Positions 925-18,066 of a DNA stretch of 54,316 bases are shown piece by piece. A program made the translations under genes and the position numbers. Origin of the DNA: Sulfurimonas sp. (GTDB taxonomy: Bacteria; Campylobacterota; Campylobacteria; Campylobacterales; Sulfurimonadaceae); contig JAMOPL010000054.1 of assembly GCA_027064515.1 (NCBI GenBank), positions 1 through 54,316 of the forward strand, given 5' to 3'. The notes beneath the pieces were generated by a model. It made no database searches. It was not told the DNA's origin and saw only the letters and a list, made by a program, of their open reading frames with translations. Positions within the stretch are counted from its first letter, which is position 1. Each line of letters begins with the position of its first letter.

Positions 925-1491
925 ACCAGTGCGTTCTTCTAAGTCATCAAATTCTCTGCCAGCTCTTTCATTTGCTGGTGTTACTTCTTGATCTCTTCCT
1001 TCACCCAAAGGCAGAAAAGATCCTTTATTTTCTACACCACCAGCAGCAGTAGCTTCTAAAACATCTGCTAATGAACCAAAATCATCAATTATAACACCAT
1101 CATTATCACCTACACTACTATTTGCAAGAGATTCTTTAAGAGCTTCTATTATCTCTCCACTTTCAAAATCTGGGTTATTTAATGCTTCTTCTATCTCAGC
1201 ATCCCCATCTCTAGTAGTTGAAACACCCACGGCAGTTGTCAAACTAAATGCATCATCAGGATTATTCATTTTAATTTTATCAACTATACCATTTAAGGTC
1301 ATTGTAAACTGATTACCATCTATATCTATCATAGAAACCAGAAGATTTGAATCCCCACCTGTTAAACTGGTAGTAAACTCAGATACTTCAGTAAAGTAAA
1401 ATTGTTGCCCCTCAATAGGGGTAAACTGCATCCCCTTAGTTACTTCTAATTCTTCTATATCACCGTTCGTATTTCTGATTATCAGTTTCAT
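1..1491 (-). CDS. LapA-like giant surface adhesin, N-terminal part (runs off window)
   Basis: Open minus-strand frame of 497 codons from an ATG at 1491 to the window edge with no stop. A clear GGAG Shine-Dalgarno lies just upstream. Residues 1-147 are non-repetitive and acidic, with no Sec signal peptide, as expected for a type I secreted adhesin exported by a C-terminal signal. Residues 148-151 are Thr-Ala-Ala-Gly in the context EATAAGGVE, matching the di-alanine site cut by the periplasmic protease LapG in LapA-type adhesins. From residue 190 on the protein is only alternating Asp and Thr (a few Ser). In LapA-type adhesins a folded N-terminus is retained in the outer-membrane secretion pore until LapG cuts it. 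That role is inferred from motif and layout. The C-terminal repeats and secretion signal are outside the window, and no lapD, lapG or type I exporter gene is present here. Confidence 0.75.
   Translation of the reverse strand, partial: MKLIIRNTNGDIEELEVTKGMQFTPIEGQQFYFTEVSEFTTSLTGGDSNLLVSMIDIDGNQFTMTLNGIVDKIKMNNPDDAFSLTTAVGVSTTRDGDAEIEEALNNPDFESGEIIEALKESLANSSVGDNDGVIIDDFGSLADVLEATAAGGVENKGSFLPLGEGRDQEVTPANERAGREFDDLEERTGDTDTDSDSDTDTDTDTDTDTDTDTDTDTDTDTDTDTDTDTDTDTDTDTDTDTDTDTDTDTDTDTDTDTDTDTDTDTDTDTDTDTDTDTDTDTDTDTDTDTDTDTDTDTDTDTDTDTDTDTDTDTDTDTDTDTDTDTDTDSDSDTDTDTDTDTDTDTDTDTDTDTDTDTDTDTDTDTDTDTDTDTDTDTDTDTDTDTDTDTDTDTDTDTDTDTDTDTDTDTDTDTDTDTDTDTDTDTDTDTDTDTDTDTDTDTDTDTDTDTDTDTDTDTDTDTDTDTDTDTDTDTDTDTDTDTDTDTDTDTDTDTDTDT
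625..702. repeat. Thirteen perfect tandem copies of AGTGTC
   Basis: Within the larger degenerate tract, the six-base unit AGTGTC (GACACT on the coding strand, Asp-Thr) is repeated 13 times without a mismatch. This is the most homogeneous part of the repeat and the likeliest place for slipped-strand length change. Gain or loss of units would not shift the frame. Confidence 0.9.
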
Positions 1492-1591: not shown

Positions 1592-2308
1592 TTAACCTCT
1601 ATTTTTAGAAATAAACTCTTTTATTCTTTCATAATCTTCTATATAATCAACTTCTGCCCAAAATATACCCTCTATATTTTTAACATATACTTTTTTATCA
1701 TCATCTACTGTTCTATATATTATATCTTCCCACCAACAGTTATAATCTTCATTACTTACTGCGTCCACAACACCCTGCTTAAATATAGTTAAATCATTTT
1801 TATTTAAAATCCCGATTCCTACATATTCTCCTGTTGTTTCTTGATTTGTTAACTCTTTTCCATACCTCTTAAGAAGTTCATCATCCCAATTAAATCTATA
1901 ATCAGCATCTTCTATTCTACTACTATCACTTAACATTACAGGGCTTCTTTTTTCTGATAAAACTACATCTAAGACTTTTTCATCCATAAATACATCACCA
2001 TTCATAATCATTATCTCATCATCTGGTACCAAAAAATCTTTAGCAAACCATACAGAGGATACAGAGTTTGCAACTCTATAAAATGGATTAAAATACCTTA
2101 TGTATGAAAACCCCTCTAATGCTTCATGAATATATCTTTCCTGATAACCAGTTACTAGAGCTATGTTAGTAATCCCTTTTTTATTTAAAAGTTCAAAAGT
2201 TCTTTTTATCAAAGGTTTTCCACCAACATCTACACAACATTTTGGTTGTCCCTGTAAATCTCTACTGATTCTACTTCCAACTCCAGCAGCCATTATTAAA
2301 ACTTTCAT
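1592..2308 (-). CDS. Nucleotidyltransferase, LicC/AEP-cytidylyltransferase-like
   Basis: A 238-residue single-domain protein of the NTP_transferase (Rossmann-like) family that activates a sugar phosphate, phosphocholine or phosphonate with CTP or a similar nucleotide. The N-terminus has the nucleotide-binding signature AAGVGSRI with a following PK and GGKPLI. A metal-binding MNGD occurs mid-protein and an EVDYIED acid motif near the C-terminus. The start has a GGAGAG Shine-Dalgarno inside the end of the preceding aminotransferase gene, 2 bp away, so the two are translationally close. Small size and pairing with a class V aminotransferase resemble the two halves of PntC-type proteins that make CMP-2-aminoethylphosphonate. 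No phosphoenolpyruvate mutase is present in the window, so the substrate is unknown. It is the last gene of the ten-gene operon. Confidence 0.8.
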   Translation of the reverse strand: MKVLIMAAGVGSRISRDLQGQPKCCVDVGGKPLIKRTFELLNKKGITNIALVTGYQERYIHEALEGFSYIRYFNPFYRVANSVSSVWFAKDFLVPDDEIMIMNGDVFMDEKVLDVVLSEKRSPVMLSDSSRIEDADYRFNWDDELLKRYGKELTNQETTGEYVGIGILNKNDLTIFKQGVVDAVSNEDYNCWWEDIIYRTVDDDKKVYVKNIEGIFWAEVDYIEDYERIKEFISKNRG

Positions 2309-2310
2309 AT

Positions 2311-3396
2311 CTATCTCTCCTTCTTTATTTTATAGTAATCATATAAAGCATCAACTAGTATATCAACATACTCTTTTGTCATATTACCCATATGAGAAAT
2401 TCTAAATATTTTATCTTTTAAAACTCCACCATTTGGAGTAACAATGATATTATATTTTTCATCTAAATCTATTACAATTTCACTTGCTTTTTTCCCATCC
2501 GTTGTTCTTAATGTTGTCATTGCATTTGGCATAAAATCACTATATAATTCTAATGGTAGGGATTTTATAGAATCTCTAAAATACTTAGCTATTGATTTGG
2601 CTTTAGCAATATGTATTTCTAAAGTATCTGATTTTATTTGTTTTAATCTTGCTTGTAGTTGTAAAATTATTGTTACAGCAGGAGTGAAAGGTGTTTGTCC
2701 CCTTTTTCCATCAGATATATAACTATTAAAATCAAGATAAAGTTGATTTCTTGGATTTATATTTTTTATGGCATACGGGGATAAAATAACCATAGAAAGT
2801 CCTGGTGGTAATGCCAAACCTTTATGAGAGCTAATGATAAGTACATCTATATGATGTTTTATCATATCAAGTTCATCAGTGATAAACATACTAATAGCAT
2901 CAACTATATTTAACATTTTATTCTTTTTTGTAAACTTTCCAATAGATTCTAAATTATATAATGTGCCTATACTTGTTTCATGAGCATTCACTAAAAGTGA
3001 AGAACAATCTTTATATTTATCTAAAATTGTTGTATCTGATAAATTAGTATTTTGGATTTTACAATCTTCTCTTTTTATATTATGAATATCACAAATATCT
3101 ACAAATCTTTGACCAAATCCACCACCATTTACAACTAATGCCTTATCCTTACTATTTAATAGATTCTGAACCACTGCTTCCATACCAGCAGTTCCAGATG
3201 CTGTTAAGAAAAGAACCCTACTTCCAGAAGGTGCATTAGAAATTTGTATAAGATTCTCTTCACATTCCAATAAAACATTTGAAAACTCATTATTTCTAAA
3301 GTACGGAGTTTGAACTCCCCCAAGATTTAGAGTCTCTTCATACATTCTAACTGGGCCTGGTGTAAAAATATATTTATCTTGTTTTTTTAAAATCAC
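2311..3396 (-). CDS. Class V PLP aminotransferase (PhnW / alanine-glyoxylate type)
   Basis: 361 residues, the usual length of this family. Features seen are an N-terminal FTPGPV motif, LTASGTAGME for the cofactor phosphate, HETSIG around residue 139, the pyridine-nitrogen Asp in VDAIS (about 166), and the Schiff-base Lys192 in SSHKG. An RISHMGN near the C-terminus provides the carboxylate-binding Arg. Family members interconvert 2-aminoethylphosphonate/phosphonoacetaldehyde or serine/alanine and glyoxylate/pyruvate. The motifs do not decide between these substrates. The start is GTG with a GGAGAG Shine-Dalgarno. The gene lies 21 bp after the LRR/ATP-grasp gene and 2 bp before the nucleotidyltransferase, so the two probably supply and activate one amino-containing building block. 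Confidence 0.8.
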   Translation of the reverse strand: MILKKQDKYIFTPGPVRMYEETLNLGGVQTPYFRNNEFSNVLLECEENLIQISNAPSGSRVLFLTASGTAGMEAVVQNLLNSKDKALVVNGGGFGQRFVDICDIHNIKREDCKIQNTNLSDTTILDKYKDCSSLLVNAHETSIGTLYNLESIGKFTKKNKMLNIVDAISMFITDELDMIKHHIDVLIISSHKGLALPPGLSMVILSPYAIKNINPRNQLYLDFNSYISDGKRGQTPFTPAVTIILQLQARLKQIKSDTLEIHIAKAKSIAKYFRDSIKSLPLELYSDFMPNAMTTLRTTDGKKASEIVIDLDEKYNIIVTPNGGVLKDKIFRISHMGNMTKEYVDILVDALYDYYKIKKER

Positions 3397-3417
3397 TTTA
3401 AATACTCTCCCATAAAT

Positions 3418-5184
3418 TTAATCTAACTCTTCTATATACTTATCCATAAGTTTTTTAAAATCATCAGGAAATCCAGCTAATGTGTATCCTGTTCTTGGAT
3501 TTATCTCAAAGATTTTTGGTATTCCATCATTAATTTTAAAATTAATACTACATTGACAGTAGCCATCTTTTCCACTCATTGCTATAACTATTTTTTCAAA
3601 CAGTTCCAAAAATGGAGTTTCACATCTTTTTACCTCTATTGTATCTTGATTTTCATGTTGAAGGATATAAACATCATTTTTACTTGCTTTACTATATGTA
3701 AAATGTTTAATTATTTTTCCATTTTTACTAAAAATAGTTGTGGCATATTCTACATTTGTTGGAAGATACTCACTCATAATCATATTATTTTTTAGACCTT
3801 CTAAATCCTTTTGATTATAAGCTATAAACATCCCTTTTCCTGCACCACCAGATTTTATTTTAATCATTGCTGGATATTTCACTTCACTCTTATTTTTATA
3901 ATATTTAGGAACATATTGTTCAAAATTATTTTTAAGCATTATTTCATAAAAAAGTTCTTTATCCACAAAGTTTTCTAGTGCCTGTTTATTGTTTACAATA
4001 AACTTTAAGCCGTTCTTTTTTAATATTTTTTCATTGTTACTAATAACTTTTTGTGTTCTATAATTATTAGCAAATAAGATTTTAATATTATATTTTTTAC
4101 AATAATCAATAATCTCATCTACATCACTAAAATAAAGATAATGAGAATCTAACCATAAAGATTTTCTATTTGCTATTTTCCAATTATGCCCAAATAAGAT
4201 ATGTAATCTTTGAATATAATTATCTTGTTTAAATTGCTCAATAGCTATACTATTCTTATTTTTATATTCATATATCTTAAATTTATTTTTAAAAAAAACA
4301 GAATTTATATTAGGTTTTATCTTATACTGAGAATCCTTATCTATATATAAAATAAATAAATCATTAACTTTAAGATTCCCTATCGCACTTATATCTTCTA
4401 AGTTTTGATTATTGTCTATACTTAATGTCTTATACGAACCATTCCATTTAACAGTTTTTAAACTCTTAAGATTCTCTAAACCATTTAATGATTTTAAATT
4501 ATTATCTGTAATATTCAAGATTCCATTTACAGTATGGAGATTAGAAAAATATTCTAAAGAATCTATATTATTTGATGACAAAGTTATACTAGCATCAACA
4601 CTCTCTAAACTAGAAAGACCACTTAATGAATTTAAATTATTCTGATAAAGATAAAGAGATGAGCCTATATTTTTCACCCCTTTTAAAAAATCTATATCCT
4701 TTAATTTAGGATTTTTCATACATTTTATATAACCAGAAATATAATCATTTTGTTTAAATAAAATATTGAATCCATTTATACTATTTAATTTTTTATTATT
4801 TGAAATTTCTAAAGAATCTATCTTTTCTAAAGAATTAAACCCATTTATAGAATCAAGATTTTTCATATCTTTTATTATTAATTTTTGAACACTTTTTAGG
4901 TAATTAAAGCTATTTAAAAAATAAATATTGTTGGAAGTTATACTTAAGTCACCATCTATATGAACTATTCGGTTTAAAAAATCTATCTCATCTTCAAATA
5001 AATTTTCACATTTTAAAATATTTACTTTTAATGTTTTTGTATCTATATCAAAAGATTCACAAAATAAAGTCCCCTCTATATCTTTTACTAAAGTATTATC
5101 ACATTTTTTTAAAATAGAATAAAACCTTTGTAAGACTAATTCATCTCTAGTAAAATTTAGATTTTCATTAGGTTTTGAAACCAT
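3418..5184 (-). CDS. Leucine-rich-repeat / ATP-grasp fusion protein
   Basis: 588 residues in two parts. Residues about 65-290 form leucine-rich repeats of the bacterial receptor-L or SDS22-like kind (recurring LNSINGF, LSGLSSLESV, LKSLNGLENL). Residues about 360-588 look like an ATP-grasp ligase: a KIKSGGAGKG loop near 442-451, the MSEYLP hinge and a metal-binding FEINPRTG near 559-566. ATP-grasp enzymes make amide bonds through an acyl phosphate. An LRR in front is unusual and could recognise a protein or peptide carrier. The ATG follows GGGGAA. The gene overlaps the upstream serine hydrolase by 28 bp. No signal peptide, so cytoplasmic. The substrate is unknown. Confidence 0.7.
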   Translation of the reverse strand: MVSKPNENLNFTRDELVLQRFYSILKKCDNTLVKDIEGTLFCESFDIDTKTLKVNILKCENLFEDEIDFLNRIVHIDGDLSITSNNIYFLNSFNYLKSVQKLIIKDMKNLDSINGFNSLEKIDSLEISNNKKLNSINGFNILFKQNDYISGYIKCMKNPKLKDIDFLKGVKNIGSSLYLYQNNLNSLSGLSSLESVDASITLSSNNIDSLEYFSNLHTVNGILNITDNNLKSLNGLENLKSLKTVKWNGSYKTLSIDNNQNLEDISAIGNLKVNDLFILYIDKDSQYKIKPNINSVFFKNKFKIYEYKNKNSIAIEQFKQDNYIQRLHILFGHNWKIANRKSLWLDSHYLYFSDVDEIIDYCKKYNIKILFANNYRTQKVISNNEKILKKNGLKFIVNNKQALENFVDKELFYEIMLKNNFEQYVPKYYKNKSEVKYPAMIKIKSGGAGKGMFIAYNQKDLEGLKNNMIMSEYLPTNVEYATTIFSKNGKIIKHFTYSKASKNDVYILQHENQDTIEVKRCETPFLELFEKIVIAMSGKDGYCQCSINFKINDGIPKIFEINPRTGYTLAGFPDDFKKLMDKYIEELD

Positions 5185-6305
5185 CTGTTCCCCTTTATAT
5201 CATCAAACACAATATCTGATAAATTATATAATCTACCCACATTAGAGTTTGCTAAGATTGATACACATATTGTATCTTTATTGTATTTATCCATTTTACA
5301 TTTCAATACTGACCTCAACCCTATACCAAGTCTTCCACCATGTTGCCATACTCTTCCATTTTTTAAAACTGTCCAACCTTTTGCATAGGTAAATCTTTTT
5401 TTACTTACTGTTTTTATCTCTTTAATAGTATGAGTATTTAGCCCCATATTATTAATTTTTATATTTTCATTAAATTGTGTTCCAAATTTTACCAAATCAA
5501 TAGCAGTAGATACAGCACTAGCATAAGCACTATTTCTTGATAACCATTGCTCATAACTACCAAATCCATCTTCACTAAAATATTGAACTTCTTTTTGATT
5601 CTTTTTTTGAATAGGATGAAAATCTATTGATGAATAATAGGATGGCAATAAAAATTTATTTCTAATATAATCTATATATGGCATATTAGTTTTTAGTGAG
5701 ATAATTTCACCTAGTAGATGGTATCCAAAATTACTATAATGGTACTCTTGTGCAACTTTAAACTCTTTAGCAAAGAAGAATTGATATTTTTTATCAAAAG
5801 TTTTACGAATAGACCTCTTAATAGTTTCTCTTGGAGATACATACCTACTTAAACCTGCAGTATGTTCTAGTAGATGTTTTACTTGAATATCACATATCCT
5901 AACAAAATAATATTTATCCATAATTTTCTTAGAATATTTCAAATAATCAACATCAATAATACCTTGTTTTTTACATATTTTATGGGTAAAAACATTATCA
6001 TTCAAACTTAATTTATCTTCTTGAACTAATTTCATTATAGCAGCAGCAGTAATACTCTTCGTAACACTACCAATTGCAAATCTATGCTTAATTGTTAACA
6101 AATCAGTTGCATTTGCATATCCATAAGCTTTTGCAAATATCAGCTTATCGTTTTTCATAACAGCAATTGATAAGCCCTTGAAATTATCTAATTTTTTTAT
6201 ATAAGATTCTACTGAATTATTTATACTACTATCAGTATATTTTGCATTTAAAAAAGTTGTTTGTATAAAAAATACAGATAATATAAATACAATGATTTTT
6301 TTCAT
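5157..6305 (-). CDS. Secreted beta-lactamase-family serine hydrolase
   Basis: 382 residues with a typical Sec signal peptide (lysines, hydrophobic stretch to about residue 21). The penicillin-recognising serine hydrolase fold is shown by SVTK (Ser80-Lys83), YSN (Tyr190-Asn192) and HGG (His322-Gly324). The spacing is as in class C beta-lactamases, DD-peptidases and esterases of this superfamily. It probably acts in the periplasm or on the cell surface. Its start overlaps the stop of the metallopeptidase-like gene by 4 bp and its end overlaps the LRR/ATP-grasp gene by 28 bp, so it belongs to the operon. In context it may trim, release or hydrolyse the product of the Mur-like ligases. Resistance or DD-carboxypeptidase activity cannot be told apart from sequence. 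Confidence 0.8.
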   Translation of the reverse strand: MKKIIVFILSVFFIQTTFLNAKYTDSSINNSVESYIKKLDNFKGLSIAVMKNDKLIFAKAYGYANATDLLTIKHRFAIGSVTKSITAAAIMKLVQEDKLSLNDNVFTHKICKKQGIIDVDYLKYSKKIMDKYYFVRICDIQVKHLLEHTAGLSRYVSPRETIKRSIRKTFDKKYQFFFAKEFKVAQEYHYSNFGYHLLGEIISLKTNMPYIDYIRNKFLLPSYYSSIDFHPIQKKNQKEVQYFSEDGFGSYEQWLSRNSAYASAVSTAIDLVKFGTQFNENIKINNMGLNTHTIKEIKTVSKKRFTYAKGWTVLKNGRVWQHGGRLGIGLRSVLKCKMDKYNKDTICVSILANSNVGRLYNLSDIVFDDIKGNRWFQNLMKI

Positions 6306-8779
6306 AATAGATAAGTTCCCATCTCTATATTATTTAAAAATCCACTTCCTCTAACATAAAACCCATTCACAACAACTATACTGTTTATTGGCTCTAAATC
6401 TTGAAGATCTAATTCTAAATCCCTTTTAAAAGTATGCCATTTTCCATTATTTGCATCAAATCCTAAACAATGATGGATATAACTATTTTGATATGTATTT
6501 CCCATATCTTTATCAACAGCAGTGTAACAAAGGGTTCGTATTCCATACTTAGTTACTAATCGTACAAATATTTCAAAAGTTCCTTCAAACTTCATATCCC
6601 ATTTTATCATTTTGAAATCTGTATTACCCCAAGCATTAAGTTTACCCTCAAAGTTACCTAATATATAACCATTTTTCCAACCATCACCATCTGTTTGTAT
6701 CACATTACTCTGTTTTTCATTATCCCTAACATAACCAATCGTTGCACCTGAAGGAGTGTTATCATATATTCTCCATCTATTAAGATTATCATTTTTGGAA
6801 TCTTCATAAACAATATAATTTTTACTTAACTCTATATTATTAATAAAACCACTTCCTCTAATATAAAATGCATTAACACTAAGTAGCTCATTGTCCGATT
6901 CATATCGTTTCAAATCTATCTCTAAATCTCTTCTAATAGTTACCCAGTTACCATTAATAATATCACTACCTAAACCATAATTAATAAATCTTTTATCATC
7001 TTTATCTATACCATTATTTATAATTTCAGGTTTATAATTTAGATATCTTTCACCATATTTTGTATCAATTTTTACATTTATTATAAACTCTTCAAAATAC
7101 TTCATATCCCATGAGATTCTTTTATCATCTCGGTTATTCCAAGCATCTTTTTTTCCTTTAGAATCCCCTATAAAGTATCCTGTTCTTTTTTTATTACCTT
7201 GTAATTTAATAACATAAGAATTTATATCTTTATCATAAATATCCATAATTGAACTATTTTCTTGTGATTTACCATATAGCTTCCACTCTTTTGATTTAAT
7301 ATGATAGTTTGTAGTACAACTACAACCATTTTGTATCACATACTCATCTATAATTTTTATAAAATTATTTACCTCTTCTTCTACACTAAGAGAATCACTT
7401 AAATTTACACTAGAATCTATTTTTAAATATTGACTAATTATTGTATCTTTTATAGAACAAAGTAAATAAGGGGTATTATCTTCAGATAAAGTATCCTCAA
7501 CTGACCACATATATCTACTATATGTTCTCTTTTGAACAACCTTTTTATCGTATTTAGCTACATTTTCTAAAAGTCTCGTTAAAAATGTAATACTTGAAAA
7601 TATTTTATATAACCTTAAAAATAGTGGATATGAACCATAAGGGTATCTTTTGCCCTCATCATTCATATAATTTAGAACCTGTGTTTCAAGATCATAAAGT
7701 GTTTGTGGTAAAGGTAAAATAACTTTATCATTTATCAATTCATCTTTAATCAATTCCATTTTTGAAAGATCATAACCAACCATCTCCATTCTATCTAAAG
7801 ATCTAGCTTGTCCTTCACAATACCAAGGATTCTTAAACATACTATATCCATATTGAAAAATATGAAAAAGCTCATGCGGTGGAACACTATTATTTTTTGA
7901 TAATGTAGATTTAAATATAATATTTAAAGAACCATCATAAACAACACCATGAGAAGTGGATGGGCGACCCTTTAATTTTCTTAATGATGCAAAGATTCTA
8001 TGTTTAATATTTTTATACCTATTTTGTGTTAAAGGATCTTTCATACCAAGATTCTTTGTTAAATAATCAAACCGTACCTTTAACTGTTTTGCTTTAACTT
8101 CAATATAGTCTGGAACATTATTTTTGTTTTTATCCTCTATATTTCTAATAATATGTTCACCATCTATAAAATAATCTAAAGTCATTGAATCATTAACTTT
8201 ATATACTTGTTTAACATACTGTTTTTTTACTCTAATAGTACCTTTTTGGTTTATTTTAAAATAAAAATCCCCATCCAACTCTTCAAAACTATCAGTATAA
8301 TTTGAATAGTCAAATGATAATATCTCCATCTCCATATTTAAATTATTTATCGCTACATATTGATACACTCTTGTTGTAAAAAGCTTATTTTTAGAATTGT
8401 AATGTGATGCTAATACAAAAATATTATTCTCTTTTACAATAATATCTTTTGGTGTATAAAATTCAGATAATTTTAATTTTTTTACTTTTGAATAGTTATC
8501 TCCAAAATTATAATAGTACACACCATTTGCTATCTCCTTTCCATTTTCAACATTTATACCTAAATAAACAACTCCGTTTATAATCTCTTTGATTTTTGAA
8601 ATCTTTTTGATTTTTGATTTTTCAGCTTTTGAATTAGGAAATATAATCTGAGAAATTAAATTACAACTTTCAAGAACACAATTATCTTGAAAGTCTCCAT
8701 TTATACTATTTTTTAGATAACTAGGTCTATTATCTAAAAGTTCAATGTATTCACTAACATCATTTACATTTATTCTCAT
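6302..8779 (-). CDS. HExxH metallopeptidase-like protein with two C-terminal RGSG modules
   Basis: 825 residues. A central HELFH (302-306) with a downstream Glu in CEGQA (about 322) is the zinc-site pattern of gluzincin peptidases. Just before it, an Asp/Asn-rich EDKNKNNVPDYIE resembles a calcium-binding loop often found ahead of such catalytic domains. Two homologous modules follow (about 560-700 and 705-825). Each has TKYG, a GLG/GFD segment, RDLE.DL and ends with FY.RGSGF.NNIE; they may bind carbohydrate or the substrate. No signal peptide is evident although such proteins are usually secreted. The ATG has a poor Shine-Dalgarno, 11 bp after the radical SAM gene. Activity and location are inference. 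Confidence 0.6.
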   Translation of the reverse strand: MRINVNDVSEYIELLDNRPSYLKNSINGDFQDNCVLESCNLISQIIFPNSKAEKSKIKKISKIKEIINGVVYLGINVENGKEIANGVYYYNFGDNYSKVKKLKLSEFYTPKDIIVKENNIFVLASHYNSKNKLFTTRVYQYVAINNLNMEMEILSFDYSNYTDSFEELDGDFYFKINQKGTIRVKKQYVKQVYKVNDSMTLDYFIDGEHIIRNIEDKNKNNVPDYIEVKAKQLKVRFDYLTKNLGMKDPLTQNRYKNIKHRIFASLRKLKGRPSTSHGVVYDGSLNIIFKSTLSKNNSVPPHELFHIFQYGYSMFKNPWYCEGQARSLDRMEMVGYDLSKMELIKDELINDKVILPLPQTLYDLETQVLNYMNDEGKRYPYGSYPLFLRLYKIFSSITFLTRLLENVAKYDKKVVQKRTYSRYMWSVEDTLSEDNTPYLLCSIKDTIISQYLKIDSSVNLSDSLSVEEEVNNFIKIIDEYVIQNGCSCTTNYHIKSKEWKLYGKSQENSSIMDIYDKDINSYVIKLQGNKKRTGYFIGDSKGKKDAWNNRDDKRISWDMKYFEEFIINVKIDTKYGERYLNYKPEIINNGIDKDDKRFINYGLGSDIINGNWVTIRRDLEIDLKRYESDNELLSVNAFYIRGSGFINNIELSKNYIVYEDSKNDNLNRWRIYDNTPSGATIGYVRDNEKQSNVIQTDGDGWKNGYILGNFEGKLNAWGNTDFKMIKWDMKFEGTFEIFVRLVTKYGIRTLCYTAVDKDMGNTYQNSYIHHCLGFDANNGKWHTFKRDLELDLQDLEPINSIVVVNGFYVRGSGFLNNIEMGTYLL

Positions 8780-8790
8780 AACTTATGCTT

Positions 8791-10287
8791 TTACTTAAGG
8801 TACTTATGATTCTTTGTATCTTTAAATAAATATTCACAAGCCTGACATATTGAATTATACTCTTTTGGTAATTCAATATGTTCTGCCATTTTTGTATGAA
8901 TCTCACCCAATGTCATAGTATATAAAGCTTTTATAGGTAAATGTTTTTCTGCATTACTAATAATTTTAGCTACTGATGATTTATGAACATTACCAAATGC
9001 CAACCCATGAATATCTTTGTTGAATCCACAACATGGGAACACATCACCATTTGGTTCAACCGTAAACCAGTTAGTTGGCTTACAAGAACCTATCTTTTCT
9101 GCTGGAATCATCGATGGGTCTTTTGATTGATTCTCTTTCCATCTTCCAACACTTGAAAGAGAAGATCGTACAACAAGATTATACCAACTACTATCTACAC
9201 CATTTTCAGCTAAGTATTTTTTAAAATCATCTACTAAATATGCATGTCCCTCTCTATACTCAAAATCAACTCTTAGTTTATGTCCAAAAATATTATGATT
9301 TGCTATTATTATATTTCGATGATGACTCCAATCTAAAAATTCTCTATGAAATTCACCAGCACTAATACCTAAAAAACCTACTCCTGGTTTAAACCCAATA
9401 CTATTTAATTCATTTAGTGTATCAGTAGCACCTTTTAATGTTTTACCCCAATAACCATTAGTTGTAATATTTATTTTTGTATACCCTAAATCTGTTGCTT
9501 TTTTAATCATTGCATTGATAATATCAGGGAATAACATTGGCTCTCCACCTGTTAAACCTAATGTTTTAATTCCATACTTATAAGCCTGAGTAATAACTTT
9601 TAAAGCAACTTTTTTATCTATAAAACCTTGCTCTTTATTACTTGATGAATTATAACAATGCTTACAAAATATATTACATTTATAACTGACTCTAAAATTT
9701 AAATGCTGAGGTTTATACTCAACTTTTTTTACATTTAGTACAGATGAACTACATGCCATATTTTTATTATTTTGCATAACTTTTATTAATATTTCTATAT
9801 CACTAAATAAATCACTCTTTTTAAAATTTAAAATAGCAGACAACACTTTATCATTATTAAAATTTTTAAAATTTCCTAAATCTATAGAACACCAAACATT
9901 GCCCCATGTTCTTGCTTTTAAAGATAATCTTTTAGGCAGATTAAATCCATATCTATTAAAAGCAGTTGTATAGTCCTCTTCATCCATTTTTATAGTTTGG
10001 TATTTATCATCTATTAGCTTATATTTAACAAAACCTATATGTAAATTTGTTAAACCAACCTCTATATGAAATAAAAAATCATTATCTCCAAAATCAAAAT
10101 AAGCACCAAACATCTGAATATTTGAAGATTCATCAAACCAATTTGAACACTTTTGTAAATCATAAAGATATGTTCTGTTTGTCTCTTTATTCATTTTATT
10201 ATTTATAGGTATCATCCCATAATCTAATAAACTATTCTCAATTAAACTAAAAAAATCAAATAAAACTTTTCCTCTAAAATTTTTCAT
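8791..10287 (-). CDS. Radical SAM enzyme with SPASM-like C-terminus and novel N-terminal domain
   Basis: 498 residues. Residues 200-380 are a radical SAM barrel with CNIFCKHC (Cys204, 208, 211) binding the SAM cluster and GGEP at 247-250. The C-terminal part has Cys402, a CC pair at 419-420 and Cys481/Cys484, consistent with one auxiliary Fe-S cluster as in SPASM/twitch enzymes that modify peptides. Residues about 38-140 form a domain without a family I recognise. It is clearly homologous to the C-terminus of the next protein upstream: both share a LHIGFVKY segment, a FGD with HIEV, and RTWG followed by WCS. It starts 1 bp after that gene's stop with an AAGGGG Shine-Dalgarno. A carbon-centred modification of a peptide or small substrate is likely; the target is unknown. 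Confidence 0.8.
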   Translation of the reverse strand: MKNFRGKVLFDFFSLIENSLLDYGMIPINNKMNKETNRTYLYDLQKCSNWFDESSNIQMFGAYFDFGDNDFLFHIEVGLTNLHIGFVKYKLIDDKYQTIKMDEEDYTTAFNRYGFNLPKRLSLKARTWGNVWCSIDLGNFKNFNNDKVLSAILNFKKSDLFSDIEILIKVMQNNKNMACSSSVLNVKKVEYKPQHLNFRVSYKCNIFCKHCYNSSSNKEQGFIDKKVALKVITQAYKYGIKTLGLTGGEPMLFPDIINAMIKKATDLGYTKINITTNGYWGKTLKGATDTLNELNSIGFKPGVGFLGISAGEFHREFLDWSHHRNIIIANHNIFGHKLRVDFEYREGHAYLVDDFKKYLAENGVDSSWYNLVVRSSLSSVGRWKENQSKDPSMIPAEKIGSCKPTNWFTVEPNGDVFPCCGFNKDIHGLAFGNVHKSSVAKIISNAEKHLPIKALYTMTLGEIHTKMAEHIELPKEYNSICQACEYLFKDTKNHKYLK

Positions 10288-10288
10288 C

Positions 10289-13200
10289 TTATACCCCTTG
10301 TTTTTTATTTACAATTAATTGTAAAACATTTTTATTAAAATCACTATTTTCAAAATCTATCATTGCTCTATAATTTTGAGCCTTTGTTAAGTCAATAAGT
10401 GATGTATAATCATAACTACACCATTTTAATCCCCATGTTCTTTTTGCTAAAACAACATTTTCACCAAATATATTTTTATATCTATTTGTAACATTTTCTA
10501 CATCAGAATCGCTCATTGCTGTAACATGATAAAGTCCATTTAACATATTATACTTTACAAATCCAATATGTAAATTTTGTGTTGCTACTTCAATATGTAG
10601 AAGATACTCCATATCTCCGAAAAAGTAAAAACTACCAAAAAGTTGTTTTCTTGGTAAAGATTCCACTTTATCAAAATTATTAAACCATCTTTTACAATAT
10701 TCATAATTATAAATATATGTATCATTCCCTGTCATTTTTATATCTTCATTTACATTAAAGATTTTATAATTTTTCAAAATAACTTTATTCATAGACTCAA
10801 AAAATTTCATAAGTAATGAAGCTCTCAAACTAGTAAATGTTTTATACTCATTTTTAACTTTTTCAAAATCTTTCTTACTTGAATCATTTTTATCCAGAGA
10901 TATATCTAGTGGCTTATTATGTTCATACTCATCAAGAGTTACCATAGCATTGTATAGTTTCACTTTATCTTTTTCAAGATTATATGAAAGAATTTTTGAA
11001 TCATACTTACTATCATCTTTTAATTTTAAGATTCTATCAGATACACGACCTAAGTAAAGATAAGCACTACCTATGATAAATAGTAAATCACCACCTTTTA
11101 ATTCATCATACAATGAGTGTGCTAACTCATCTAAATCATCACTATGATTAACAAATATGTTTTGATTTTTTAAGTCGTCTTTTACATAATTCATAAAATT
11201 ACCCGTTGTATAAAGCCTACTAATATCACTATCATTTATCATTTTTGCTAATTCAGAATGTGATTCTTTTGTCCAATCGGTGTCTTTTTTAGTTGAAATT
11301 CCACCAACAAGAGCTACTATTTTTCCTTTGATTTTAAAGTTTTTCATATCTCTAAATGCAGACCTCATACCATGGATTCCACCTCTTCTACTTTGATCAT
11401 AAAAATCAACCTTACCAGATTTTTTTTCTATTTTCAAGATTCTGCCCATTGTTTCAAATGGGATTAAACCTCTATAATCATTAGAGGCTTTTTGAATATC
11501 ATAACCCATCTCTTTAACTACCAATAAAATTCCAACACTAGTAAGTGGTGCATGATTCTGAAATAATGGTAAAAAATAATTTACAATCTCACCATCGATA
11601 GAAGCTTCTATATCCCATCCATACTCCTCAGAATTAAAAACTTTTTTTATTAGATATGCTGTATCATTTTCGCTGTATCCATAAGTTAATATAGGTAGAT
11701 TTTTTCTTCTATCATCTATCGCTTTTAAAAGCAAATCGTAATGTTCAATTGTTGAGTTTAATATACATTTACCACCATCAACAAGCCCTTCAACAACAGA
11801 AGACTTTGCAATCATTATATTCTCAATAGTTTTATGCATATCCATATGATTTGGGCCTATATTTGTAAAAAAACAAAGATTTGGATTTACAATCATTGTT
11901 CTCTCTACTCTATAAACCTCATCACTCCCTACTGAAACCTCATTTATTTCAATCTTATCATCAACCTCTAAATTTATCAAAGATCTTAAAACTGGAATCT
12001 CAGTATTTGCACTGTTTAAAACACCATGTGTTTTTACTTGTTGGTTTAAAATATGATGTAATTGCACCTTTGAGCCTGTTTTTCCCTCTGTCCCTGTTAT
12101 TAAAACTGTATAAGGGTTATGTTCTTGCCGTACTTGAATTGAACACTGTTTAAAAGCTTCAAAACAATCTTCTACATATATTATAGGTACATCTATCAAA
12201 GGTGCATATTTTAAATCATCTATTACTACCGCTCTTATATCTCGACTTAAAACTTTTTTCAACTCTTTTGCTACATCTTTTTTATCTTTTATCCAATCTT
12301 TAATTGCCATAGAAAAATATATATTCCCTTTTGAATAAGTTCCATAAGTACCTACTCCTGTGAATCTTAACTCTTTATTAATTCCATTAATCCATTCACC
12401 ATTTGTATAGTTCACTAATCTATCAGGAGTTAAAAAAATCTCTTTATATTCATCTATTTTTTGAGTAAGTTCTTGAGCAAGTTGTAAAAACTTATCTTTA
12501 TCTTTTTGCTTCATATCTAAAATAGAGTAATTAAAAAGTTTCATATTTGGAGTTTTTATTAACTCTTTTGTTCTTTGCATCCCTTTTTTAACCTCTTCTA
12601 TCCATTGAGTATGTGAAACCTCATTATCAAGATTAGGATTCTCTAAGAGTGCTGGTGCAAAACCATTAAAAGTTAAAAGATGAGTTAGTGTTACACAAGA
12701 GAATGTTCTTGAGTTTCCATCAGGAAAAGGGTGTAAAAGTTCAAGTTCCCTAGAGACTAAGGATATAACTTTTAATTTTTCATCATCTGTTTTAGATATT
12801 TTAATATTTGTGTTGTATCTGTCAATAATATCTTCCATCTTTGATATTATCATCATCTGAACACTATGTTTTGCTTCATAAAATTCATGTAAAGTTTTCT
12901 TTCCATCTAATGCATCTTTTTGACTTTTATCAAGATTTGGGTACCAATTTCGATAGTTGATTTTTTTATCTTTTAACATAACTTTATATATCTCATCAAC
13001 ATCTAAATCATCTGCAGGTTTACCCCATAAAGAGGAATTAAAAATTGCAGTTTCATCACCACTTCTTAGTTCGAAAACCTCAACTAGATGTTCATAAGTT
13101 GTAGTTTTAGCGAAAAATGGCATCCCAGAATTTAGATATCTAATATCTCCTGGACTTGATTTTAGATTAGTTGTTTCTACATTAAGTAAACAAATCTTAT

Positions 13201-13411
13201 GTAATTCTCTTAAATATGTAGAACTTAAACCATTAGATATATCAAAATTATCAATCATAAAAGAGAATCCATTTAAAAGTGCTTGAACACTACCCCTCTC
13301 ACCAGATTCATAACCTACCCAGCCATCATATTTTTGATGAAATCTTCCATCAACAAAAAATCTCCAAAATTGAGATTTATCAAATTGTTTTAAATACTTA
13401 AATTTAGACAT
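10289..13411 (-). CDS. Fic domain / Mur-ligase-like / novel-domain fusion protein
   Basis: 1040 residues in three parts. Residues about 60-300 form a Fic domain with HPFPDGNSR (227-235), close to the HxFx(D/E)GN(G/K)R motif of AMPylating Fic proteins but with Ser in the Gly/Lys position. Residues about 335-830 resemble MurF: a TNGEW start, P-loop GTEGKTGSK (440-448), TNIGPNHMD, and YDQSRRGG (671-678) where MurF has DDSYNANP. Residues about 865-1035 repeat the domain found at the N-terminus of the adjacent radical SAM enzyme. The start has a GGGG Shine-Dalgarno. The fusion suggests ATP-dependent amide-bond formation on a substrate also handled by the radical SAM protein. The Fic part could be regulatory or nucleotidylate a partner. 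I know no described protein with this layout. Confidence 0.75.
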   Translation of the reverse strand: MSKFKYLKQFDKSQFWRFFVDGRFHQKYDGWVGYESGERGSVQALLNGFSFMIDNFDISNGLSSTYLRELHKICLLNVETTNLKSSPGDIRYLNSGMPFFAKTTTYEHLVEVFELRSGDETAIFNSSLWGKPADDLDVDEIYKVMLKDKKINYRNWYPNLDKSQKDALDGKKTLHEFYEAKHSVQMMIISKMEDIIDRYNTNIKISKTDDEKLKVISLVSRELELLHPFPDGNSRTFSCVTLTHLLTFNGFAPALLENPNLDNEVSHTQWIEEVKKGMQRTKELIKTPNMKLFNYSILDMKQKDKDKFLQLAQELTQKIDEYKEIFLTPDRLVNYTNGEWINGINKELRFTGVGTYGTYSKGNIYFSMAIKDWIKDKKDVAKELKKVLSRDIRAVVIDDLKYAPLIDVPIIYVEDCFEAFKQCSIQVRQEHNPYTVLITGTEGKTGSKVQLHHILNQQVKTHGVLNSANTEIPVLRSLINLEVDDKIEINEVSVGSDEVYRVERTMIVNPNLCFFTNIGPNHMDMHKTIENIMIAKSSVVEGLVDGGKCILNSTIEHYDLLLKAIDDRRKNLPILTYGYSENDTAYLIKKVFNSEEYGWDIEASIDGEIVNYFLPLFQNHAPLTSVGILLVVKEMGYDIQKASNDYRGLIPFETMGRILKIEKKSGKVDFYDQSRRGGIHGMRSAFRDMKNFKIKGKIVALVGGISTKKDTDWTKESHSELAKMINDSDISRLYTTGNFMNYVKDDLKNQNIFVNHSDDLDELAHSLYDELKGGDLLFIIGSAYLYLGRVSDRILKLKDDSKYDSKILSYNLEKDKVKLYNAMVTLDEYEHNKPLDISLDKNDSSKKDFEKVKNEYKTFTSLRASLLMKFFESMNKVILKNYKIFNVNEDIKMTGNDTYIYNYEYCKRWFNNFDKVESLPRKQLFGSFYFFGDMEYLLHIEVATQNLHIGFVKYNMLNGLYHVTAMSDSDVENVTNRYKNIFGENVVLAKRTWGLKWCSYDYTSLIDLTKAQNYRAMIDFENSDFNKNVLQLIVNKKQGV

Positions 13412-13422
13412 CTTACTATCCC

Positions 13423-13866
13423 CTATCTATTAATTTCTAACTTCATCTGATATGCACTATTACCATTTTTATAATAATTTTTAATATATTCAATAATTTT
13501 AAAACCATTATTAAAATAAAAATTAATTGCTCTTATATTATATGTATGAACTTCTAAAAAAATAATTTTATACCTATTGTTTATTCCAAAATTAATAATA
13601 AATTTCATTAACTCTCCACCTATTCCCTGATTTGTTTTTATTGTTGCTATTTGGTAAATTCTTAATTTTTCATCATATTTTTTCATAAATATAAAAGCTA
13701 ATAATTTTTTCTCTTTTGAGAGATAACCATATACTTGTTTTTTAAATATAACCTCTAAAAAAGCCTCTTTTGATATTAAATAATCTTCACTATCTTTAAA
13801 GTTCACTTGTTGAATATACAAAATATCATCAATATAATTTCTATTTAACAAAATAATTTCACTCAT
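13423..13866 (-). CDS. GNAT-family N-acetyltransferase
   Basis: 147 residues, the length of a single GNAT domain. The acetyl-CoA phosphate loop is visible as NQGIGGELM, followed by FLEVHTYNIRAINFYFNNGF, which is the standard beta5-alpha4 region with the NxxAxxxYxxxGF signature of RimI-like enzymes. The ATG overlaps the end of the upstream Mur/DUF2156 gene by 8 bp, and the gene ends 11 bp before the Fic fusion gene. It probably acetylates an amine on the pathway product or intermediate, but the acceptor is unknown. Confidence 0.8.
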   Translation of the reverse strand: MSEIILLNRNYIDDILYIQQVNFKDSEDYLISKEAFLEVIFKKQVYGYLSKEKKLLAFIFMKKYDEKLRIYQIATIKTNQGIGGELMKFIINFGINNRYKIIFLEVHTYNIRAINFYFNNGFKIIEYIKNYYKNGNSAYQMKLEINR

Positions 13867-16246
13867 ATTCTATACGCCCCTTATAAACTTTGTATCTATC
13901 TACTGGACGAAACATTCTTTTTGAAGCATCTAGTCCTCTGCTTATACCTACACCATCATTTATCAACTCATATTTACTATTGTCAATAATTAATTTATGT
14001 CTAATATAGGACTGAATACCTTTAAAGGAATAATTACTTTTGCCTATAAAAAAACAAAGTACTTCATCTTGTATTTCTCCTACAAATGCAAATGATATTA
14101 GCTTATTATCTTGTAAAACAACCAAACCTTTTAAATCTTCATCACTAAATTTATCAAAATTTATAATACAATTTTTTGTATATTTTTCATCACCTATATC
14201 ATCATATTTATCTTTTTGATTATTTATCCAAACATCATAAAGTTCTAAGCACTGTTTCTCATATTTTTTCGTATATGGAAGAGTTGATATATTTTCATAT
14301 TTAGACATTTGTGTCAACTGCTGTCTTAAATTTCTAAATTTACTACCCGTTAAAGTATCATACCGTTTTTGTTCATAAATATATTCTGATGCTTTATATT
14401 CAAATTTTATTTTACTATCAATGTTTTTTAGCTTTTTCACATCATCTCGATTTACCCAAGATATATTTGCTGTTTTATACCCTTTATATTTATAGATTCT
14501 TTCAAAAGCTTCTTTTTGTACCTCATCTACTAATGGTAAAGTTGGTATATACATTTGAATTCTAGGAGGATATGAACGATGAAACTTATCAAAAGAAAAT
14601 ATATTCATCACTCCATCTTTTTTATCTATGAGAATCTCTCTACTACTAGATAATGACCAAAAATATATAAATGGAAAATAATCTATCCAACCTTTTTTAT
14701 TTTCCAATCTTACTGCTCTTTTAAAATCATCTATATCTGATGGTTCAATAGTTCTTAAACCTCTTAAAGCTTTATTTTTAGTTTTCATACTATTTTGGCT
14801 TCTATGTTCTTTTATTATTATCCCATCTATCGATTTAAAATCTTTTATAAATGCTGTTAAACTACAATCAAATATTCCCTTCACTGTTACTATATCATCA
14901 TTTTGAATAGTATCTAGTATCTCATCTTCTATATTATGATAATCTATACTATGATTCTTCCAAATTGTTTTATCCTCTAAAACATTAATATGCTCACTAA
15001 ATTTTTCAACAGAAAAAATATCACGAATAGCAGATTCCTTAATTATTTTTTGAAATAATTTTTCATCTATATTTTCCATCTCTCCATCAATATAATCAAC
15101 AAATTCAGAAGTAATTAGAATTTTTTTACCATCTCTTTTTGGCTTTATATATTTCATAGTTTTAAAAAAACTTTCATACCCCTCTACTCCACCTCTATTA
15201 CATTGATCATATAAGTAAAAATGTTTTTTATCTAATTGAACTTCATATAATAATCCACTACTTTTAAAGTTCTTACAACTATAATATTCATCTGCACATT
15301 GATGAATATCAAAACCTAAATGGTAAGCACATAAGAGTACACCTAAAGAGTTTGAAACAGCATACTCTTCAAAAAATGGAACTCTATATGCTACAACTTT
15401 ATTTTCAATCTTTGCAACTACATCCCATCCAAACTCTGAATATTTTTCATATAAAACTCTGGCATTACAATCATCACCTGAACCATAAGTTAAAATATCC
15501 ACCTCTGTATATTTTTTAGCTTCTTTATATATCTTTTTATAATATCTATCATTGTATGGTAGTAGAACTTTTCCACCTTTGGGAAGGGCTGAAGCTATAA
15601 GTAATTTATATCTAATAATTCTATCTATTGTTTTAAACCGTTCAATACCCTCATGTCCAATAGATGTTAAAACAAAAATATCTGGAGAGATAAGTTTAGC
15701 TCTCCTTGTCATCTTATCTCTGTTTGAAATTGGCATCTCTTGTAGATAGAAATCTGTATCATCTTTTATAGATGCAATACCACAATAATTTGAAGCAGTA
15801 AAATTAGCACTATTTTTTCTAGTATAAATATTTTTTTGTTTTTTTGTTATATTATATAAATCTAATTTAAATCCTGTTTTCCCATAACTTCCACTCATTA
15901 AAACTTTCTTAGCCTTAGTTTTTTTACTACTGTATATTGCTAAAGCTCTCATAGCCAAATAACTACTCTCTACTCTCAAAATTGGAATCGTCGTATCTAT
16001 CTTTAAGTCTTTTTGAACAATGATAGCACTTATCCCTCTCTTTATTGCTCTTTTTATTTTATGCTCATTATTTTTATAAGCACTTTTATTTGGCCAATTA
16101 TCTGATATAACAACAAAAGCATCATTTTTTTCTAAATAATGATATGTATGATGAAACTCTATTATCTGTAAATCATCTCTTAAATTTTCCCATTTACCAT
16201 TAGTTATTTTTGCTATCTCTTTTGAATTAAATTGTAACTTATTCAT
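13859..16246 (-). CDS. Mur-ligase-like protein fused to DUF2156 aminoacyl-transferase-like domain
   Basis: 795 residues. The first about 480 resemble MurF: TNGKW near residue 15, P-loop GSYGKTGFK (119-127), LTSIGHEG, and YDQCNRGG (346-353), which parallels YDQSRRGG in the Fic fusion protein. Residues about 492-795 match the DUF2156 family (C-terminal domain of phosphatidylglycerol lysyltransferase, a double-GNAT Fem-like fold), with EYIYEQ followed by LTGSKFRNLRQQL. Members of that fold transfer aminoacyl groups from aminoacyl-tRNA. The gene follows the toroid gene by 8 bp with an AAGGA Shine-Dalgarno. One chain may therefore make one amide bond by ATP and another by tRNA. Which amino acids are used is not visible. 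Confidence 0.7.
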   Translation of the reverse strand: MNKLQFNSKEIAKITNGKWENLRDDLQIIEFHHTYHYLEKNDAFVVISDNWPNKSAYKNNEHKIKRAIKRGISAIIVQKDLKIDTTIPILRVESSYLAMRALAIYSSKKTKAKKVLMSGSYGKTGFKLDLYNITKKQKNIYTRKNSANFTASNYCGIASIKDDTDFYLQEMPISNRDKMTRRAKLISPDIFVLTSIGHEGIERFKTIDRIIRYKLLIASALPKGGKVLLPYNDRYYKKIYKEAKKYTEVDILTYGSGDDCNARVLYEKYSEFGWDVVAKIENKVVAYRVPFFEEYAVSNSLGVLLCAYHLGFDIHQCADEYYSCKNFKSSGLLYEVQLDKKHFYLYDQCNRGGVEGYESFFKTMKYIKPKRDGKKILITSEFVDYIDGEMENIDEKLFQKIIKESAIRDIFSVEKFSEHINVLEDKTIWKNHSIDYHNIEDEILDTIQNDDIVTVKGIFDCSLTAFIKDFKSIDGIIIKEHRSQNSMKTKNKALRGLRTIEPSDIDDFKRAVRLENKKGWIDYFPFIYFWSLSSSREILIDKKDGVMNIFSFDKFHRSYPPRIQMYIPTLPLVDEVQKEAFERIYKYKGYKTANISWVNRDDVKKLKNIDSKIKFEYKASEYIYEQKRYDTLTGSKFRNLRQQLTQMSKYENISTLPYTKKYEKQCLELYDVWINNQKDKYDDIGDEKYTKNCIINFDKFSDEDLKGLVVLQDNKLISFAFVGEIQDEVLCFFIGKSNYSFKGIQSYIRHKLIIDNSKYELINDGVGISRGLDASKRMFRPVDRYKVYKGRIEYE

Positions 16247-16254
16247 TTTTTTCC

Positions 16255-18066
16255 TTAAATAATATTATAAAGTCTTGCAAAAAAACAAGCTGTATGTTGA
16301 ACTGAATCTACCCTAACCCACTGTCTTGTAAGTTTAAATCTAAAACTATGTAGTGCTTTTTGTTGATTTATATGAGCATAAACAGATTTCTCACTGTGAA
16401 AAGTTGGTATCAAACCTTTTGCACTTAAAAGCATATTTTCCATTATCCAATCAGCTTTTTCTTCATCTTTTAAGTATTTTGCCAAATAATATGCACTCAC
16501 AACACCCTCACATCTTGAAGCATCATGATAAACATGGTCACCATATTCATAAAAGAATCCACCTATATAATCTTTATTGTTCTTATTTGTATTTTTCTCT
16601 TTATACATATGATCAAACATAGTTTTAGTATCGTTAAAAACAAAATCTATATAAGAATCTTTTTTTAATTCATCTACTTTTACCCACTCTTCAATAGCTT
16701 GCATAAGCCAAGCATCTGCTGGAAGAGTTTCAAACATATAGTCATATTTAATTGGTCTTATCTCTATTAAAAAATCTAATGCTTTTTCCGATTTTTCTCT
16801 TATATCTTGCTCTAAATCTTTATCAATATTTTTTATATGGCGATAGTATAAAGCAAGTCCAAGTAATGCTTCCCCTGGATAGTAAAATGAAAATAGTTCT
16901 TTTTTAATCTCATCATTAGGATTCATTAATGCTTTTCCATTATTGAAATTTGGATGGATATAATACCCTAGCATCTCCCCATCAGAATCTACCCTACTTA
17001 AAATATGACGAACCAATCCATCAAGCTCTTTTCTATAACACTCATCACCAGTTTGTATGTAATAATGCATCATCGCAACTAGCCCAATTCCAGCACCACC
17101 AAGTTTTGATTTTTTATTAAAAAATGGATAACAAGCAAACTTTTTTTTATATCTATGAGTTCTAAAAGTTGATATTAAAAATTCAATAGAATCTTTTGCT
17201 TTTTCCAAATAAAGTTTATCTCCACTTAATTCATACCCTCTAATTAACGATACAGTACCACCACTATGTCTTAAGATATTATTATATAAAGGATTTATCA
17301 TTCTAGGGTGCATATCATCAACAACAGTATTTAGATAAGGGTCATAATAATATAAAAAACTTCCATCATCATTCATATTTTTCACAAGCCAATCAATGCT
17401 TTTCATAGTTTTATCGTAAATAATATCTTTTGAAAATTTTAATTCACTTTTAGGGTATCCACGCACTAACTCTATTACATCATTTTCATATGAAATATAA
17501 GCATCAGATTCTACAAATGTGTACTCTATATCCTCTCTTCTCATCAAATAAACTCTTTCACTTATCTTATTTGTTATTTTAGAGATTCCACACTGTTTTG
17601 ATAGATAATTTAAAAGTTGATTAACACTCATAATAGACTTAGTATATCCATCAGTTGGCATAAAGATTCTTGTAATACCTTTATACTTATACATCAAACC
17701 ATTAATTCCAGGTTCAAACCTATTCCTAGATTTCATTTTCATAGTGGTAAGATTTCTTATATTACAAGGATACTCCTTAGTTACTATTTCAAACATTATT
17801 CTACATTTTTTATTATCTTCTATATCAAAATATGAAAACTCTTTTTTTGATTTAATTTTAAAAATAATTCTTTGAATAGTTTCTTCTAAAGTACCTTTTT
17901 TAGAACCCCACCGAAGAGCTTTATTCCCCTCTTGAAAAAGAGTAATATATACTTGAGATATTTTTGAATCATAGAACATATCAAAATTTGCAGGTAATAC
18001 AAATTTAGAGTTTAGAACAAGTTTATCTCTTATACTTTCAATTAATTTATTTATATTTTTAGACAC
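16255..18066 (-). CDS. AMMECR1-like / alpha-alpha toroid protein, first gene of operon
   Basis: 603 residues starting at GTG with an upstream GGTGG. Residues about 30-200 resemble a distant AMMECR1 domain: a VYITLFQEG strand, GINGLMYKYKG, FMPTDGY and a helix LLNYLSKQCGI in the right order, but without the RGCIG motif of that family. Residues about 215-603 are helical repeats with aromatic and acidic motifs (NDDGSFLYYYDP, HSGGTVSLIRGYE, FYYPGEALLGLALYY) typical of alpha/alpha toroids such as terpene cyclases, glycosidases and epimerases. Catalytic residues cannot be assigned. It is transcribed divergently from ychF and leads the operon. Secreted signals are absent. Function is unknown. Confidence 0.6.
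   Translation of the reverse strand: MSKNINKLIESIRDKLVLNSKFVLPANFDMFYDSKISQVYITLFQEGNKALRWGSKKGTLEETIQRIIFKIKSKKEFSYFDIEDNKKCRIMFEIVTKEYPCNIRNLTTMKMKSRNRFEPGINGLMYKYKGITRIFMPTDGYTKSIMSVNQLLNYLSKQCGISKITNKISERVYLMRREDIEYTFVESDAYISYENDVIELVRGYPKSELKFSKDIIYDKTMKSIDWLVKNMNDDGSFLYYYDPYLNTVVDDMHPRMINPLYNNILRHSGGTVSLIRGYELSGDKLYLEKAKDSIEFLISTFRTHRYKKKFACYPFFNKKSKLGGAGIGLVAMMHYYIQTGDECYRKELDGLVRHILSRVDSDGEMLGYYIHPNFNNGKALMNPNDEIKKELFSFYYPGEALLGLALYYRHIKNIDKDLEQDIREKSEKALDFLIEIRPIKYDYMFETLPADAWLMQAIEEWVKVDELKKDSYIDFVFNDTKTMFDHMYKEKNTNKNNKDYIGGFFYEYGDHVYHDASRCEGVVSAYYLAKYLKDEEKADWIMENMLLSAKGLIPTFHSEKSVYAHINQQKALHSFRFKLTRQWVRVDSVQHTACFFARLYNII

Follow-up and report, generated by a model that had tools for sequence, protein, structure and literature searches.

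The window that we analysed is the whole 54,316-nucleotide contig JAMOPL010000054.1 (C54) of a fragmented, 80% complete Sulfurimonas sp. assembly (GCA_027064515.1). It carries on its minus strand a ten-gene operon that is strongly linked to a giant secreted adhesin, the stalk of which is a tract of Asp-Thr and Asp-Ser dipeptides (D[ST]). We are fairly confident that the locus is dedicated to this adhesin. Whether the operon is also the modification-and-supply half of a giant LapA-type adhesin locus, with a Fic domain drawing on a cytidine monophosphate (CMP) conjugate that we call CMP-X, we regard as an evenly balanced question. The ten open reading frames (ORFs) span 18066 to 1592 and lie in the transcript in the order J, I, H, G, F, E, D, C, B, A. 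Their coordinates bear out the tight, same-strand spacing given in the initial annotation (junctions of -28 to +21 bp), the gaps from A to J being 2, 21, -28, -4, 11, 1, 11, -8 and 8 bp. That annotation took the operon for a free-standing peptide-like or conjugate pathway, a view that our analysis does not support: the locus holds a giant type-1-secreted adhesin, and gene J co-occurs with the Asp-Thr/Ser tract, not with a small-molecule pathway.

The adhesin ORF, recognised by ORF reading and from the N-termini of its relatives, begins 100 bp downstream of A on the same strand, with a ribosome-site-like AAGGAG, and its 497 codons (1..1491, minus strand, as are all features below unless stated) run off the contig. 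The protein starts MKLIIRNTNGD... with a retention-like N-terminal module, and its N-terminus is 50-54% identical to the closed-genome adhesins of G558, G561 and G546. A TAAG motif follows the module (1039-1050); it resembles the LapG sites of LapA-type adhesins and may be a cleavage site here as well. Then comes an uninterrupted tract (1-924) of 154 D[ST] dipeptides (150 DT and 4 DS), in which every second residue is Asp and within which the contig ends; the NCBIfam Sdr/Clf models match it. A plus-strand (SV)n ORF at 8-991 is an antisense artefact of this (DT)n tract. The TAAG motif after the N-terminal module, together with the type 1 secretion system (T1SS) genes adjacent in relatives, places the protein among the LapA-type T1SS adhesins, retention and LapG cleavage being predictions only. 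The initial annotation had missed the adhesin start at 1491, a domain that we call X and the genes for type 1 secretion that neighbour the homologous loci; its remark that there was no transporter loses its force, an ABC exporter adjoining those loci in relatives. For the window itself, a G558-like TolC-LapB-LapC set on contig C17 of the same assembly is the likely continuation, judged by similarity to G558 only. The same genome also has a second T1SS of the TolC/OmpA-LapB-LapC-LuxR type (L205:14498-15187, G000:C16), followed by a second adhesin start that is cut by the contig end.

To follow the tract across genomes, we scored it by a (D[ST])8 DNA signature in two overlapping samples, one of the genus (n=135 genomes) and one of the phylum Campylobacterota (n=397). 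J is present in 15/135 genomes of the genus, and the 12 that carry the signature are all J-positive, against 0/120 of the J-negative ones; for the phylum the figures are 16/397 with J and 14 with the signature, again all J-positive, against 0/381 (Fisher test, 1e-14 and 5e-24 respectively, values that ignore relatedness and come from samples that overlap). The J-positive genomes without the signature (G043, G104 and G200) are fragmented assemblies. J does not simply follow secretion, since the LapB-type exporter (LssB) is above cut-off in 90/135 genus genomes; J as a marker of T1SSs in general was rejected on the same count, LssB being far commoner. The association is also physical: among the closed genomes, about 0.4 kb separates J from the tract in G471, G384, G486 and G530, and the distance rises to 1.4 kb for G546 and to roughly 10-20 kb for G062, G558 and G561. 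The named relatives with J belong to Sulfurimonas or elsewhere in the Campylobacterota.

When 199 relatives were searched, the fused Fic-Mur protein, G in the window, turned up in a handful of genomes of the same genus, and in those loci J and the cluster directly adjoin the TolC/OmpA, LapB, LapC and LuxR genes. The clearest picture comes from the closed genome G558, where a gapless array, on a single strand except for one small gene, runs from J through a Fic-Mur-X protein, HExxH-LRR-abhydrolase-ATP-grasp, Mur-DUF2156 and tailoring genes to a class V aminotransferase, a cytidylyltransferase, an adhesin with 740 D[ST] dipeptides, TolC, LapB and LapC. Closed genome G561 is similar, with an aminotransferase of HisC type and 742 dipeptides. 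The relatives' adhesins have a TAAG/PAAG-type site after the N-terminal module and RTX-like C-termini. At the other extreme, the minimal loci of G056 and G471 hold nothing beyond J, the secretion genes and the gene for the tract protein. The cultured methanotroph Methylotuvimicrobium buryatense 5G has the order LapB, LapC, LuxR, (TD)n protein, J; its LapA-like protein, with about 700 D[ST] dipeptides, stands immediately before J (L051:2907-11791), and we found no Fic gene in this locus. A core of J, Fic-Mur, cytidylyltransferase and aminotransferase recurs in the relatives' loci, so that the operon is more than a chance assembly, but the ten-gene set is not fixed, and neither the radical SAM part of F nor D has a match in any relative's locus examined. 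In G062 (L171/L172) and G002 (L174), the genes for the D[ST] proteins are flanked by HD-domain plus P-loop-kinase-like proteins of ~360 aa that weakly resemble CCA-transferase.

It could be argued that the product of the operon is a surface polymer or capsule-like amide conjugate in its own right, merely co-located and co-regulated with the adhesin in one biofilm locus, the tract remaining an unmodified stalk. The CapA/PGA_cap proteins that accompany Mur ligases in G084 and L055 do recall poly-gamma-glutamate synthesis, and the secreted proteins (D, the E-like ones and the propeller proteins) point to steps in the periplasm. However, it is the D[ST] tract that J follows across genomes, not T1SSs in general, the minimal loci contain T1SS, tract protein and J with nothing else, and among the families that Pfam and NCBIfam detect in the operon there is neither a glycosyltransferase nor a lipid carrier nor an exporter of the Wzx/Wzy type. 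We consider a separate polymer rather improbable.

The reading that we prefer is that the tract itself is modified before it leaves the cell. B and A would make CMP-X, a CMP-activated aminoalkyl phosphate or phosphonate, and the Fic domain of G, acting in the cytoplasm before export, would move phospho- or phosphono-X from it onto the Thr and Ser hydroxyls of the tract, a transfer that in our estimation stands an even chance of being correct. Amides would be formed by C, through its ATP-grasp domain, and by the MurF-like module in each of G and I, either on tract Asp side chains or on the transferred group; J would recognise, or first modify, the tract; domain X may serve to recruit both G and F; and D and E-like proteins may trim or mature the tract. 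The proposed substrate would be a secreted protein of >1000 aa, unlike the small precursor peptide with a leader of the ribosomally synthesised and post-translationally modified peptides.

The AnkX-type Fic domain of G (12452..13411) shows homology to the Legionella effector across ~300 aa (it scores 125 bits against the AnkX model, short of the full-length cut-off of 1400; PDB 4ber, E 2e-22). Its motif is HPFPDGNSR (His227), and HPFxDGNxR is invariant in 12 homologs. AnkX transfers phosphocholine from CDP-choline onto Ser76 of Rab1, and a cysteine scan put F107 and D265 among the residues placed near choline (PMC7228754). In the alignment the choline site is not conserved in G, F107 being replaced by Ser and D265 by Asn, with E226 and N262 kept. 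The cytidylyltransferase (NTP transferase) A (1592..2308) has as its nearest solved relatives LicC, which makes CDP-choline (1jyk, E 2e-13), and the PntC-AEPT fusion (6pd1, E 2e-8); PntC makes CMP-aminoethylphosphonate (CMP-AEP) (PMC6697681). B (2311..3396) is a class V pyridoxal phosphate (PLP) aminotransferase of the AEPT type, PhnW/AepZ-like but below the NCBIfam cut-off. Each of A and B thus has its counterpart in one half of 6pd1, the two being unfused here. Fic and this pair travel together: where Fic-positive loci have enough sequence, they contain a cytidylyltransferase and a class V, HisC-like or CobD-like PLP enzyme, and not one of the tabulated Fic-negative loci has either the cytidylyltransferase or that aminotransferase. 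The exceptions are the cut contigs G004, G043 and L039, and L056, which has an aminotransferase with no cytidylyltransferase seen. The J tree requires at least five changes of Fic status, which means that the coupling does not reflect the inheritance of one block.

The nature of X is most nearly legible in the Arcobacter-like genome G506 (L200/L201, G506:C175:226837-231071), where phosphonate genes lie on one strand between an AnkX-type Fic-Mur gene and a D[ST] adhesin gene. They encode PepM (fused to a cytidylyltransferase-like domain; 423 bits), Ppd (397), a LicC-like cytidylyltransferase and the AEP aminotransferase AepZ (387), the scores all over curated cut-offs. Since this is a full CMP-AEP route, the donor in G506 is very probably CMP-AEP, and the locus is a candidate for protein phosphonylation. 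Phosphoenolpyruvate (PEP) mutase was found only in G506; neither the window genome, at 80% completeness, nor its near-complete window-type relatives have it, and a weak PF13714 match in the window genome was rejected as PanB. The phosphonate (AEP) pathway was rejected as a general answer for this reason. For window-type genomes, phosphoethanolamine and phosphoserinol are our guesses for X, suggested by the HisC/CobD-like alternatives to B and by the Campylobacter capsule, which carries ethanolamine and serinol as amides (PMC12409886). A phosphonate pathway that decorates a glycan, as in PntC systems, could draw on the likeness of A and B to the unfused halves of 6pd1 and on PepM-Ppd-AepZ in G506. 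We find it very improbable, because PEP mutase is missing from all near-complete window-type genomes tested and because the operon has no glycosyltransferase or LicD-type transferase, the sole candidate transferase being the Fic domain.

Both Mur modules, that of G (11012..12451, P-loop GTEGKTG; NCBIfam and PDB matches) and that of I (residues 1-480, 14807..16246, P-loop GSYGKTG; Pfam/NCBIfam), have an intact P-loop and are nearest MurF in sequence; no cyanophycin synthetase is among their PDB matches at E<1e-5, which sets them apart from CphA. Mur amidation of the tract Asp residues is chemically attractive, but we think it doubtful. A stronger form of the idea makes amidation primary: the Mur and ATP-grasp enzymes would attach amino groups to tract Asp, in the way that cyanophycin synthetase acts on poly-Asp through its Mur-like module, with Fic and CMP-X as an optional extra. 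It is consistent with the Fic-less fusions of J to Mur modules (L047, L055), with two RimK-like ATP-grasp proteins in G084 and with Asp at every second position; set against the likeness to MurF and the missing cyanophycin synthetase matches, it appears to us decidedly unlikely. A more ambitious version of the reading we prefer has the Fic-Mur protein decorating both residues: Thr/Ser would carry an aminoalkyl phosphate or phosphonate in diester linkage, and Asp would become an amide. A ribosomally made tract, up to ~740 dipeptides long, would in this way be converted to a templated, zwitterionic surface polymer of teichoic-acid/cyanophycin-like character; we give this only a small chance. The initial annotation's proposal of an amide-linked surface molecule nonetheless survives in several of its parts, namely the conserved operon, the ATP-dependent amide ligases, the nucleotide-activated building block (A being nearest LicC/PntC) and the surface destination.

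J (16255..18066, 603 aa) has no Pfam or NCBIfam family match, yet it is the most conserved component, 71-77% identical across variant loci, and belongs to a wholly unannotated family of at least 125 loci among genome contigs of several phyla. An AlphaFold2 model built from 57 sequences reached a pLDDT of 93.7 and replaced a first one from 8 close sequences (63.5). On this model (Foldseek/VIA), residues 1-200 match the AMMECR1-type structures 1zq7 and 1vaj. Residues 211-603 form an (alpha/alpha)6 barrel that best matches cellobiose 2-epimerases (8wbu, Z 28.9, root-mean-square deviation 3.2, 330 residues), followed closely by GH76 and by unsaturated glucuronyl hydrolases; 43/57 J homologs have a C5-epim_C match. 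The modelled barrel resembles D-glucuronyl C5-epimerase and the AGE epimerases in fold, a likeness that does not by itself show function, and J differs from them in its extra AMMECR1-like N-terminal domain. J is tied to modification enzymes by its fusions: to a kinase in L040, to a kinase plus Mur module in L047, to a Mur ligase in L055 and to a Mur-like N-terminal piece in G558; our preferred guess is a tract-recognising or first-acting enzyme. In G062 a 947-aa protein next to J (L172:15074-17917), in a locus without Fic, has a CapA/PGA_cap-like region and matches the lasso peptide epimerase MslH at 68 bits, below cut-off. J homologs are common in loci of gut Gastranaerophilales/Melainabacteria metagenome-assembled genomes (L064-L115), 41-47% identical and with no T1SS neighbours; 6/13 of the Gastranaerophilales J genomes tested have the D[ST] signature elsewhere in the genome.

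Several observations weigh against Fic-centred modification of the tract. Outside the scan sets the signature occurs in only 18/32 J-positive genomes, mostly incomplete assemblies, with M. buryatense among the 18, and many Gastranaerophilales J homologs stand apart from T1SS genes. CDP-choline itself is doubtful as donor because AnkX F107 aligns with Ser in G, and X need not be a phosphonate in window-type genomes, given that they have no PEP mutase. The resemblance of the Mur modules to MurF, and not to cyanophycin synthetase, does not point to an acceptor. More generally, what the data show is the co-occurrence, the physical linkage, the domain identities with their intact motifs and the coupling of Fic with A and B; the tract as substrate, the donor here, the Mur substrate and the reaction of J are inferences.

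The remaining domains of the operon agree with the initial list, which Pfam and NCBIfam confirm, the DUF2156 domain now appearing as LPG_synthase_C at the C-terminus of I (13859..14779, Pfam E 6.4e-11). H (13423..13866) is a GNAT acetyltransferase by Pfam, and in the relative G111 an H-type GNAT is joined to I in one protein. The C-terminus of G (10292..10891) is domain X, an unnamed region of ~190 aa with no Pfam match, defined by its similarity to the N-terminus of F and shared with abhydrolase proteins of relatives; in the tabulated loci it occurs only alongside Fic and is possibly a shared targeting domain. F (8791..10287) joins domain X (residues 1-190) to a YydG-like radical SAM/SPASM enzyme with CxxxCxxC, and E (6302..8779) has a HELFH (HExxH) metal site and matches the Glce-type beta-sandwich twice (both proteins by Pfam/NCBIfam). 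D (5157..6305, Pfam E 1.7e-35) is a secreted-looking serine hydrolase of the beta-lactamase/DD-peptidase fold with a signal-like N-terminus, and C (3418..5184, Pfam) combines a leucine-rich-repeat-like (LRR) domain with an ATP-grasp ligase and is conserved in relatives.

If the proposed reading is true, a Fic transferase with a dedicated CMP-X supply would serve the bacterium's own surface protein, a new role for Fic enzymes, and the Fic domain of G would be a plausible environmental relative of AnkX. The J family would gain a function, the tie between giant Asp-Thr/Ser tracts and particular genes a reason, and adhesin stalks would be seen to be coated by a non-glycan route. The closed-genome relatives and the cultured M. 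buryatense 5G, with its J, T1SS and D[ST] protein, make all this directly testable. In the open-access literature, to which our search was confined (subscription papers and preprints being outside its scope), we found no described system with this combination under Fic plus Mur ligase clusters, Fic plus serine-aspartate repeats or T1SS D[ST] adhesins.

Fic enzymes are mainly known as toxins, regulators and injected effectors, and we know of no AnkX-like Fic fused to a cell-wall-type ligase that acts on a bacterium's own proteins. AnkX shares with G a homologous Fic domain, the HPFxDxNxR motif and, as we expect here, a CMP-conjugate donor; but it is an injected effector with ankyrin repeats that targets host Rab1, whereas G is a Fic-Mur fusion whose operon lies next to the gene for one of the bacterium's own adhesins. 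The PntC-AEPT and LicC systems are matched by A and B, the two halves of 6pd1, and by the full PepM-Ppd-AEPT-cytidylyltransferase set of G506; they have been described in glycan and lipid tailoring, however, and the window type is without PepM, LicD or a glycosyltransferase. Cyanophycin synthetase, whose Mur module amidates the Asp side chains of poly-Asp, offers with MurF the Mur ligase fold, an intact P-loop and a precedent for side-chain amidation of an Asp polymer, although the modules here are nearest MurF and are fused, in one protein or another, to Fic, DUF2156 or J. The staphylococcal Sdr/Clf serine-aspartate-repeat adhesins, whose tract is glycosylated by SdgA/B, have a similar low-complexity (S/T)D stalk, but the present system is a Gram-negative T1SS with mostly DT and with Fic and Mur enzymes in place of a glycosyltransferase. 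Finally, the LapA/LapBC adhesins share the exporter set, the TAAG/PAAG-type site and the RTX-like C-termini, and what distinguishes the adhesins described here is an extremely long Asp-Thr/Ser tract together with a dedicated set of neighbouring enzymes.

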